Below are positions 51,999 to 56,619 of a DNA stretch of 64,000 bases, piece after piece (position 1 is the stretch's first letter; the number at the start of each line of letters is the position of its first letter). The notes below the pieces were generated by a model that was not told the DNA's origin, ran no database searches, and saw only the letters and a program-made list of their open reading frames with translations. The position numbers were made by a program, and so were the translations under genes. The DNA comes from Paramecium tetraurelia. Lineage: Eukaryota; Ciliophora; Oligohymenophorea; Peniculida; Parameciidae. The DNA is taken from assembly GCF_000165425.1 (NCBI RefSeq), contig NW_001799400.1, positions 372,001-436,000 on the forward strand, given 5' to 3'.

Positions 51999-52586
51999 TC
52001 ATTTTTTATAAAATGGAGCTGACAGCTTTCTTATTCTTTTATAAGGATCTTCGGATTTCTTGGGAACATTTAATCTTCGAGTCAAATCAGTTTACTAAGT
52101 AGCTGTTTATTGAGTTTTTAAGAATTGTTTAAAAGACTGTGCACTTGGAGTTTGAGCCAATCTAAAGCAATCCTATTATTTTATTGGAGGACAAGGTTCG
52201 TAATCTCTTAAAGATGTGAAGAAGTTCGTTCTTCTTTGAAACTTTTATGATGATGGAGCCAGTCCTCCTTCATCAGCACTAGAAAATAAGAAATTAAAAT
52301 TACATTACATAATTATCTCTTCCAGATCCATCACTTTGATAGTGTCTAAATTTGGGTACCATCATAGGAGCAGGAGGTTTCCATTGTTTTTATTTGCTAA
52401 AGGTTCCTAATTCAGGATGCACACATTAAATTTAAATTTCTTTCCAAATTCCTCCATTTTATAAAGTGACATAGGAATCCCTACCTTATGATATCCTTCG
52501 ATAAATTTACCAGTTCCATCTGGTGCATAGTGTGTCATTTTGGCTTCCAGGGTTCCAGCAGTTGCGCATCTTTGTAATTTTGACAT
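51999..52586 (-). CDS. Protein with repeated DGxGRDxYV motif (178 aa)
   Basis: Introns 52485-52510 (ends AAG) and 52279-52303 give 178 aa. Two near-identical motifs mark it: YAPDGTGRDSYV (about residue 22) and YQSDGSGRDNYV (about residue 78), about 55 residues apart. Pro/Lys-rich segments (PPAPMMVPKF) and a basic C-terminus (RLNVPKKSEDPYKRIRKL) follow. The DGxGRDxY signature occurs in protist proteins that I believe are cilium-associated; I cannot name the family. The splice at 52485 creates the first motif copy, which supports it. Confidence 0.7.
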
Positions 52587-52834: not shown

Positions 52835-54630
52835 ATGAGATATGCATAAAATAGTTCAAGTGAATTCGTTTTAGGGATAGCATTTTTGGTGTTGGGCATG
52901 ATTTACACAACGATATTCTTTTTTGGTGTAATCAGATATTGTAAAATGGGGAAGAGAACAAAATACTTGGGAAAGCAATTTTACTTATCTATTGTATTGT
53001 CTTGTTTGGCATATATGTTGAATATGGCTTTGTACTTATATGATGTACATTTACAAATGTAAAATAGGTTTTTAAATCTCAACCTACTGATGAGTATATT
53101 GTGAGTATTGAAAAATAGCTGTTAAATACAATATATGTTCCTGATGGCTTATTTTGGATAGTTTATCAATCATTGTTTTGGACAGTGGTTTGTTTGCATT
53201 ATGACTCACATCTGCATATAGGATAATAGGATGAACTTCCATATAATCCAAATATGTTGATTAATGCTACAAAAGACATTTGTTTAGTATATGGAATAGC
53301 TCAATTAATTGTTGTGTTATTATATAACTTTGATTAAATTAAAAGTGGAGTATTATTTTACATCAACATCTGCATCAATCTATCGATTCCTGTCTAATTG
53401 ATAATAACATCTCTATACCTATAATATAAATATTCAGGATCCCCATTCAAATCGTCAAAATAAGAAAATAATTCAAATAGATTGTAAAAGTTAATATTTT
53501 ATTGGACAATCCTAAGAGTTTTTCAAATCATTAGCAATATTTTATTAATGGAAAATCAGGAAAGTATAGAGAAGTTCTTTTCATCCCAATTAAGTCAAAA
53601 CCAACTGTTGTTGTATATTTCAATACTCATAATTGATCTATTATTGACTAACATATTTCCATTTATCTTGGCCCTTAGACAGTAAAGTTTTTCGATATTT
53701 TTGGGTCACAAAAATACTACAATGAGTACTGTTTCAGATCAGCCAATTCATTAACAATTGATAAATGATAATAAGAGCTCAGTAATGGAGAGGAAATAGA
53801 TTTAATTTGATTACAATGAAATAATGAGATAGAATATGAATTAATAAGCAAAACGATAAAAACCAAATGGATTCGGATACATTATTGTCTGTCAAATATA
53901 ATAAAAAAGTTATGGAATGAGAGTGATTGAATTCAAATAACTGTAACCTTATTTGATTGAATAGATAAAGTAGGAAATTGAATAAGTGAATTAATTAAAT
54001 CATTAACAACTTTATCACATTCGTGGATTCAAAATAGTAGAAAGTAAGGTAGTATATCTAACCAAATTTTATTAATATTCCTTACACAGTTATCTAGCAT
54101 AGTATTAGATTTCGATAGAAGAAAAGATTAAGATCTTAATTTAACTGTTAAATGGACTCAATTATCTGCACAAATAAGGTCTTTGTCATGGGAGTTTGAC
54201 ATCGGAAAATGTAATGGTTAAACCAAATGGTCATGTCAAAATAAGTAAATGTGATATGTTATCTTTTCTAGTTGATTTCGGTCTATTTGGGATTAAGAAA
54301 TACTAATCATTATTGTAGTTTTACACAAACAAATCTGCATTTACAGCTCCAGAATTGATTTAACAAAGAGGGTTGGTTGTGAGTGGATCATAATAAGGAG
54401 ACATATACAGTGTTGGAATGATTATGTATGAGATGTTTGAAAAGAAAGTGCCTTTTGAAGGATTATAACTATAAAATATTTAGGATTGTCTTAACAAAGC
54501 AGTAAGGCCTAAGATTGAGTCTCAATCTTTGATGGATGATATCATTAGATGGTGTTGGCAACAGGATATAGAGAAGAGACCATTGGTTGATTAGTTATTA
54601 AATGTAATTGAAAAAATATAAATAAAATGA
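52835..54630 (+). CDS. Seven-transmembrane protein fused to a predicted pseudokinase (about 583-590 aa)
   Basis: N-terminal half: about seven hydrophobic segments (for example VLGIAFLVLGMIYTTIFFFG, FYLSIVLSCLAYMLNMALYL, VPDGLFWIVYQSLFWTVV, LLLYISILIIDLLLTNIFPF), the number expected of a GPCR-type fold. After a Gln/Asn-rich linker comes a protein-kinase-like domain (about residues 335-583): FGYIIVCQIQQKSYG, LNYLHKQGLCHGSLTSENVM, DFGLFG, FTAPEL and GDIYSVGMIMYEMF. The VAIK Lys appears as Glu (MRVIEF) and HRD as HGS, so catalysis is unlikely. DFG and APE remain. Intron 53061-53083 and a probable in-frame 21-nt intron, 54251-54271. The stop overlaps the next ATG. Known GPCR-TKL and GPCR-lipid-kinase fusions in oomycetes and Dictyostelium are the nearest design. 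Confidence 0.75.
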
Positions 54631-56619
54631 GTGGTACAATAGTTGTGGGGTCAAATATTTACGAGACTGAATTCTTGGACGAAATTTTTATCTATTATGG
54701 CAACAAGACCAACAACACCATTGGCTTTAAGGATGGGTTGATAATTAGTCCAAAAAAAATGGAATTGCCAGAATATAAAATGAATAGATCTGAACGAGGA
54801 GAAATCATCATGGCAATAATTAAGGAAGCCATGAATCTGATGGAATACTCAAAGTTATCAGATATGGGCATTATTAACATGTTTGAATTACAATACATAA
54901 ATCAATTGAAATCATATCCATCACTAAGATTTTAATTGATGGATAGAGAGCAGCCATCAGTGTTAATGGATGTTCGTAAATCCTATTTTACTATGCATAA
55001 TTGTTACTAAATAATTAAGACTTTAAATACAGATCCCTCCACATATTTTAAGAATAAATTTGTGCTTTTGAGGTACCCTGAAAAAAAAATGATTGTTCAA
55101 ATTAAATCAGTTGTGCTTGATTAAGAGTTCACATATAAGGGTTTATCTTTGGAAGACTACTTTAAATAAAAATATTAATTGAGGAGCAAATCAAGTGTTT
55201 ATTTAGAAACATACAACACTCAGAATATTAAGAAATAATTCTTAATTGCAGAATTTTGTGAATTGAAAATAGATTATATTGAATAAGATGTCACTGTGTA
55301 TTGTCAACAGCTGGAATATTGGAATAAAATTATTAATAATAGTTCATCATTTATTTAATTCTTAAATTAGTATAAATTCATAATCAGAAATGAGTAAGTT
55401 GAATTCAAGTAATAATACTTAGAACCTGGAAATTTAGCATTAAATAATCAAACTAAATCAATATTTTAGATTGTGGCCTCCAGAACATCAAGTGAATTTG
55501 AGTACTACTACACTGATTTCTTTCTTAAAAATCCCACTTCTTTTACAACCTCACTGACCATCAATAAATTGATGATTTTAGTAACTAGAGAAATCATTGA
55601 ACTTAGAGACAACTTTAAATCATTTTTAGAAAAATTTGATTTATTCATCAAATCCAGATAATACAAAATATCATAACCATAAATTTATGATATAAATAAT
55701 AATTTGAATGAAATCCTAGAAAAATATGTCACTGAAGATGCATATGTACTTTTTGTTGGAGATCAAAATACAGATTTTATCTAAGCAAGAAATACTTTGT
55801 TATCCAAGGCCATTCCTAATTAAATAATTATTCTTCCCATATAAGATTAAGAAATAAATAGATTATTAGCCATGATGACTGCCAATCTTGGTAGTGTGCC
55901 TTGGGCTATTAGAGAAATTAATGGATTAATTACTAATAAAAAGAGCGCTGTCTTAGGTATCTGGAAAAGCGAGAATTCTTATTCTGCATGTCTCAGCATC
56001 AATAAATATCTCAACAAGTATATATCCTCGTTTGGAGATTTAGATTAAGTTCTAACCCTTCTTTTAGCCACTTATTATGCCACCCATAAAATATTGGCTA
56101 ATTAAATCATTGTGTTTGCTTAAGATGATTATACACAGATTATGGAACAAAGAATTCTAGGAGTCATTTAATTGATAAGAGATCAAGGATTGGCATAGCA
56201 AATCTTAAAACCTGAAGTTGTTATGGTTTAAGTAAAGGATGCCACGGCAGAAAGATACTTCACATATTTTGAAAGAAATTTGTAATATATTATTTCTATC
56301 TTATTCTAGTGAATCTTACTATTGTAAAAACCCTTAAGTAGGTTGTATAATCCCCATCAATGAGAAGTAAGGGAGATTTTCATTCCATTCTTAGAGAGGA
56401 GAACAAGGATGTTTATAAGCCTAATAATTACATATTAGTTCAACCAACACAAAAGAAATCGCTTAATTATACTATCATCTGATTTTCTTAAATTTCGATT
56501 TGAGTTCCACCACTTATTTACCTGCACCACTTCATTATGCCAAAAAATTGTCAAAACACCAAATTTAGAGTGAACAATACAAAAAAGCAATAGAAAAAGG
56601 ATTTTTGTTATTTGTTTGA
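54627..56619 (+). CDS. Argonaute/PIWI-family protein, slicer residues degenerate (654 aa)
   Basis: Argonautes bind small RNAs; in Paramecium PIWI-type members act in genome rearrangement and RNAi. Order seen: N domain from residue 1 (VVGSNIYETEFLDEIFIYY), PAZ-like region (MIVQIKSVVLDQEFTYKGLS, LEDYFKQKY), MID (SKAIPNQIIILP), PIWI (GSVPWAIREINGLI, AVLGIWKS, NQIIVFAQDD, VMVQVKDATAERYF, CIIPINEKQGRFSFHSQ, YLPAPLHYAKKLS). One intron, 56283-56310, restores the PIWI end. Where slicers have Asp in GxDV this protein has GIWK; the final His (YAH) is Lys (YAK); RDG reads QDD. Cleavage is therefore improbable. Length is short (Ago usually 750 or more) because the N-terminal extension is missing. Start ATG overlaps the previous stop. 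Confidence 0.82.

Follow-up and report, generated by a model that had tools for sequence, protein, structure and literature searches.

Our analysis identifies what is almost certainly a real and selectively maintained family of four Paramecium tetraurelia genes, each predicted to encode seven hydrophobic, putatively membrane-spanning segments (7TM) followed in the same polypeptide by a kinase fold that has lost canonical catalytic residues. One member lies in the window, by which we mean the whole 64,000-nucleotide stretch of DNA that was analysed, and its features are collected in Table 1. The architecture is that of the GPCR-TKLs, in a form predicted to be non-catalytic, and we found no report of this design from the lineage.

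Table 1. The window gene (A1) and its predicted features, in window positions
Feature	Positions	Strand	Basis or remark
7TM-pseudokinase gene	52835-54630	+	581 aa, ciliate code (table 6), three exons
Exons 1, 2 and 3	52835-53044, 53068-54244, 54272-54630	+
Intron 1	53045-53067	+	23 nt, GTACAT...AATAG, phase 0
Intron 2	54245-54271	+	27 nt, GTAAAT...TCTAG
Seven hydrophobic segments, whole region	52877-53673	+	Kyte-Doolittle hydropathy
Segments 1-4	52877-52933, 52982-53038, 53146-53202, 53275-53331	+	residues 15-33, 50-68, 97-115, 140-158
Segments 5-7	53350-53406, 53491-53547, 53617-53673	+	residues 165-183, 212-230, 254-272
Kinase-fold (pseudokinase) domain	53866-54627	+	Pfam PF00069, PF07714
R355 replacing the beta3 (VAIK) lysine	53920-53922	+	alignments
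HGS replacing HRD (catalytic Asp to Ser)	54187-54195	+	also HGS in A2; HGH in pair B
DFG, intact	54274-54282	+	DYG in pair B
APE, intact	54346-54354	+	present in all four members

Gene structure, duplicates and selection

Searches with the membrane part across the genome (69 Mb in 231 contigs, ciliate code), run at E 0.001 and at E 10, returned these four genes and no others; candidate scoring covered 132 of 1240, and the counts of that search are lower bounds. The genes fall into two duplicated pairs, the window gene A1 with A2 (contig C164, locus L046) and B1 (contig C167) with B2 (contig C6). According to the ORF lists, homologous ORFs lie on both flanks of A1 and A2, and likewise of B1 and B2, and tblastx shows the flank homology of pair A for the upstream side. 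Over the few kilobases compared, the A and B neighbourhoods have only this gene in common, apart from some pieces of 11-17 codons, and between A1 and B1 the kinases are 39% and the membrane parts 28% identical. Whole-genome duplications would be the natural source of the pairs.

Both the membrane part and the kinase are under purifying selection. By a simple counting method, and at dS values of 0.8-2.3, dN/dS in pair A was 0.069 for the membrane part, 0.292 for the linker and 0.078 for the kinase (0.088 for A1 versus A2 overall), and the corresponding values in pair B were 0.055, 0.093 and 0.118.

The sequence-only reading of this DNA had proposed a single gene at 52835-54630, and both the coordinates and the one-gene claim were borne out. 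The start and both intron positions of A1 recur in A2, and the position (after LYLYD/E) and phase of intron 1 are common to all four family genes. Intron 2 of A2 is 26 nt long and begins from the identical GTAAAT donor, and the frame of A2 depends on it; in A1, splicing of the 27-nt intron 2 yields KIIDFG, as in an ordinary kinase. The 21-nt intron proposed earlier (54251-54271) would give KISKFDFG and has a donor that is absent in A2, and it is replaced here by the 27-nt intron at 54245-54271. An in-frame ATG further upstream (52775) was rejected as the start because its frame is not kept in A2, where the matching DNA is one base longer (the DNA before 52835 was compared by eye). In A1 one exon (53068-54244) encodes TM3-TM7 together with the linker and half of the kinase, ending with the residue that precedes DFG, and A2 is alike; in B1 and B2 a single exon extends from the loop ahead of TM4 across most of the kinase. 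This uninterrupted exon of A1, together with the recurrence of the architecture in four genes, upholds the earlier claim that the 7TM part and the pseudokinase belong to one gene.

The TGA stop codon of A1 (54628-54630) shares bases with the ATG that opens the next ORF on the same strand (54627-56312, 561 aa), for which a Pfam scan gave no match at E 0.01, and the ATGA overlap (54627-54630 in the window) is kept in the duplicate at L046 2517-2520. Fusion of A1 to this ORF was considered and rejected: the sole in-frame join would be a 38-nt GTT..GAG stretch, and the pair-B proteins stop at the identical point of the kinase. On the other side of the gene, divergent short ORFs (74 and 98 aa), for which Pfam gave no match, lie at 52273-52586 on the minus strand, and a stretch similar to this one is also found upstream of the duplicate in L046.

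The kinase domain

As had been proposed, the hydrophobic segments of A1 are followed by a kinase fold (PF00069, E 3.1e-32, residues 348-573; PF07714, E 6.4e-30, residues 366-573). The replacement of HRD by HGS and the intact DFG and APE motifs of A1 had likewise been read correctly. The residue at the VAIK Lys, taken earlier for Glu, is in fact Arg (YGMRVI, R355) and is Arg in all four members; in the alignments R355 stands against the K of VAIKII in MARK4 and the K of YALKMI in the kinase of locus L032. For A1, A2, B1 and B2, in that order, the beta3 motifs are YGMRVI, FGMRIV, YALRVV and YAVRII, and the catalytic loops are HGSLTSEN, HGSLTTEN, HGHLNSNN and HGHLNSSN. Every member thus has Arg in place of the beta3 Lys, has lost both the Asp and the Arg of HRD, and has kept the Asp of DFG/DYG; also kept in all four are the catalytic-loop Asn, KQEI at the expected alphaC Glu, the alphaF Asp and KRP. 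A pseudokinase being a kinase fold in which at least one of the VAIK Lys, the HRD Asp and the DFG Asp is lost, the domain is one in which two of the three are gone.

Judged from these residues, the kinase is very probably catalytically inactive. Since no member found retains the catalytic-loop Asp or the beta3 Lys, phosphotransfer is predicted to be lost, and to this extent, as a prediction drawn from the lost HRD Asp and from Arg at the beta3 Lys in all four, the earlier description of the domain as catalytically dead can stand. The loss of canonical kinase residues does not always abolish activity. Binding of ATP or Mg may persist, since the DFG Asp, the catalytic-loop Asn, KQEI and the alphaF Asp remain. 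Considering that the substitutions occur in all four members despite 39% identity between the A1 and B1 kinases, they appear either to predate the split between A and B or to reflect the same constraint.

The domain leans to the tyrosine-kinase-like (TKL) group, a placement that is not settled. Scores for PF07714 versus PF00069 were 104.8 versus 112.4 in A1, 112.8 versus 116.9 in A2 (ratio 0.96), 101.8 versus 97.1 in B1 and 110.5 versus 105 in B2 (ratio 1.05); the ratio was 1.08 (205.7 versus 190.7) in locus L025, taken for TKL-like because of this value, and 0.57, 0.57, 0.60 and 0.68 in four other kinases of this genome. A tree was built from 28 kinase domains, those of the four members and of 24 of 33 kinase loci (three repeats, L028, L034 and L038, and six loci of less than 170 residues were left out); in it the family forms one clade (100/99) and joins L024-L026 at 81/85, with a long-branch warning on that join. 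Among the best 60 of 2444 PDB matches to the kinase, TK and TKL structures (EGFR, RIPK1, MLT, KSR2) are mixed with MARK and MELK, and the top score, that of EGFR, sums two copies in one chain.

Of the 38 kinase loci of this genome that were compared, five of them from the family (L016-L020) and three of them repeats, each with about 1.5-2 kb of upstream DNA, only the five family loci have at least four segments in the ORF that enters the kinase. At L030 and L033 four segments lie in an ORF that stops short of the kinase, by about 700 and about 1050 bases, respectively.

The membrane part

A segment was defined as a hydropathy maximum of at least 1.2 in a 19-residue Kyte-Doolittle window. By this measure seven maxima precede residue 285 in A1, in agreement with the seven hydrophobic segments claimed before, and exactly seven segments are found in each of the four members, as judged from hydropathy only. 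At least seven segments were also reached in 16 of 1000 shuffles of the 285-residue membrane part and in 114 of 1000 shuffles of the whole protein, and because shuffled sequences can reach seven, hydropathy alone is moderate evidence only. The stronger evidence, which we find convincing, for seven predicted segments is their conservation between pairs that are 28-29% identical.

The charge of the loops suggests an N-terminus outside and a C-terminus, with the kinase, in the cytosol. In A1, Lys and Arg residues number 6, 1 and 5 in loops 1, 3 and 5, and 2, 1 and 1 in loops 2, 4 and 6; in pair B the numbers are 4, 6 and 4, and 3-4, 1 and 1-2, respectively. Loop 3 of pair A, expected inside, has only 1 and 0 Lys/Arg in the two members and is of no help to the topology. 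Ahead of the first segment there are only 9-14 residues.

A Pfam scan of the membrane part gave no match to a transmembrane family, and a bacterial antitoxin model matched it in two of the four members, at a best E of 0.22. A PDB profile search with the membrane part returned no sequence match at E <= 10, and among 233 and 119 pattern matches in viral and prokaryote contigs, respectively, no relative was confirmed. The Dicty_CAR profile had no match in the genome, in a search in which no control responded either. Kinship with the 7TM proteins THH1/TOM1/TOM3, considered for a possible resemblance, was rejected: PF06454 gave no match in the protein scans or in the genome at E <= 10. Structure prediction for the contiguous exons 2-3 reached a pLDDT of 35.4 and a pTM of 0.20, values too low to inform on the fold.

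By hhalign, the membrane parts of pair A and pair B matched at 99.6%, while the family membrane part scored 0.1-0.4% against the membrane regions found at four of the 20 PIPK loci collected from this genome, and the reversed-sequence controls 0.1-1.0%. The miss against the PIPK regions is no proof that kinship is lacking, because among these regions themselves only L078 versus L064 scored high (95.4%) and the other five pairs reached just 0.2-5.7%. Three or more transmembrane segments are present in ORFs near PIPK loci L060, L062, L064, L068, L070 and L078. Since L062 and L070 showed no clear hhalign match to L078, to L064 or to each other, this genome may have more than one kind of membrane part linked to PIPK.

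Relation to known designs and possible function

An N-terminal 7TM part with a C-terminal TKL-type kinase placed in the cytosol is the layout of the GPCR-TKLs of oomycetes and amoebozoans. Passages of PMC5784254 count 17 GPCR-TKLs in Phytophthora infestans and state that evidence of their presence is confined to oomycetes and amoebozoans; passages of PMC12716839, whose proteome list includes P. tetraurelia, repeat this restriction while adding choanoflagellates, and for GPCR-TK also early-branching metazoans, and its authors infer repeated independent origins. The main text of PMC12716839 nowhere uses the term 'pseudokinase'. The choanoflagellate GPCR-TKL/K and GPCR-TK proteins (the latter also in early-branching metazoans) share with the present family a 7TM part and a C-terminal kinase, and belong to other lineages. 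Instead of the predicted-active accessory domain expected of a GPCR-TKL, all four members found here have a degraded kinase (Lys to Arg, HRD Asp lost); moreover, no DEP domain was found in the Pfam scan and the 7TM part matches no Pfam family. In the part of PMC3019232 concerned with these kinases, 19 TKLs of P. infestans are predicted to be inactive, most inactive TKLs have transmembrane domains, and 21 TKLs are counted among 2614 P. tetraurelia kinases.

The sequence-only reading had named the oomycete GPCR-TKLs and Dictyostelium RpkA as the known designs and had known of no described ciliate example. The comparison with the GPCR-TKLs is apt, the layout being the same; that with RpkA is not, RpkA carrying a lipid kinase (PIPK) and not a protein kinase. 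Type IV PIPKs (GPCR-PIPKs such as RpkA) do resemble the family in having a 7TM part and a C-terminal kinase and are present in ciliates, 15 of these 7TM-lipid-kinase fusions being listed for P. tetraurelia in the pertinent passages of PMC3823935, so that ciliate examples of this kind are described. They differ in being lipid kinases of another catalytic family, with a 7TM part not detectably related to ours (four PIPK loci). A lipid-kinase identity of the RpkA type was itself rejected: Pfam scans of A1 and B1 gave no match to PF01504 at E <= 10. As to 7TM-protein-kinase fusions, none from a ciliate was found in the literature searched, in agreement with the passages of PMC5784254 and PMC12716839 above; the abstract and results of a ciliate GPCR survey (PMC9960496) mention a PIPK accessory domain and no protein kinase.

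KSR2 and RIPK1, which are among the best 60 of 2444 PDB matches, are alike in having a TKL/TK-type domain. In the pseudokinase KSR the beta3 Lys is likewise Arg, whereas the catalytic-loop Asp is kept, and neither KSR nor RIPK1 is known to have a membrane part with seven spans.

We suggest that the four proteins may be receptor-type membrane sensors in which the pseudokinase serves as an allosteric docking module, a reading to which we give roughly even chances. A stimulus sensed by the 7TM bundle would cause a conformational or oligomeric change in the TKL-type pseudokinase joined to it; so altered, the pseudokinase would dock to, or allosterically switch, a partner, probably an active kinase. 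KSR and HER3 are pseudokinases that work by docking or allosteric switching, and this is the manner proposed here. The output would not pass through a heterotrimeric G protein, considering that no G-alpha over cut-off was found in the genome. A more far-reaching version, in which the ciliate lineage has independently built an orphan, G-protein-free 7TM sensor with an obligately dead TKL-type pseudokinase that predates the duplications, is put forward tentatively, as a possibility and not as an expectation.

Of the readings that compete with a docking sensor, one takes the membrane part for some other seven-helix protein (of an organelle or of trafficking, a channel or a transporter), whose sorting or gating the pseudokinase regulates. 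It would accord with the lack of a match to any Pfam receptor family, PDB profile or PIPK locus (n=4) and with the 9-14 residues before segment 1, which provide no sizeable ligand-binding ectodomain; however, many GPCRs have short N-termini, and the layout of a GPCR-bigram is matched by the seven segments, the loop charge and the signalling-type domain at the C-terminus. We regard this reading as rather unlikely. That the kinase domain is instead an active, atypical enzyme phosphorylating proteins without the HRD Asp is improbable: the conserved DFG/DYG, APE and catalytic-loop Asn and the strong purifying selection on the domain speak for activity, but the Lys and the Asp are replaced in all four members and the HRD Arg is gone too. 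Misreading of two adjacent genes as one, or of a decaying pseudogene as a gene, has nothing in its favour beyond hydropathy being permissive at this composition and is extremely improbable, given that one exon holds TM3-TM7 and the kinase to DFG in pair A, that most of the kinase is likewise in one exon with TM4-TM7 in pair B, and that dN/dS is 0.05-0.12 in both domains.

The genome itself bears on whether these proteins could be conventional G-protein-coupled receptors in which the dead kinase is a regulatory tail only. Not one of 12 matches to the G-alpha profile in the genome was over cut-off, in a search made without a eukaryotic control, and ten of the 12 fell at profile positions 144-262, which we take to be the part common to other GTPases; the RGS profile had no match in the genome, in a search in which no control responded. 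For Arrestin_C, 17 of 18 genome matches were over cut-off, versus none of 12 for G-alpha and no match for RGS. The layout and the Arrestin_C result would suit a conventional receptor, as would one of the GPCR-bigram working models sketched in part of PMC6033456, in which an inactive accessory domain is combined with G-protein output. In the same direction, passages of PMC3226668 cite evidence from pertussis toxin, cholera toxin and antibodies that ciliates have G proteins, the evidence for Paramecium including that from pertussis toxin and antibodies, and report that knockout of a Tetrahymena GPCR lowered G-protein activity. Against this, the G-alpha and RGS results make a G-protein route less likely and favour signalling via the attached domain, although they are not decisive, and we consider a conventional receptor distinctly improbable.

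Finally, returning to the proposed sensor with a docking pseudokinase, the ciliate family adds a further lineage to those with 7TM-protein-kinase fusions, possibly by an independent origin. Since the kinase looks dead in every member, the family separates a receptor fused to an enzyme from a receptor fused to a docking module, and Paramecium, with no G-alpha over cut-off here, is a place in which 7TM signalling free of G proteins may be tested.
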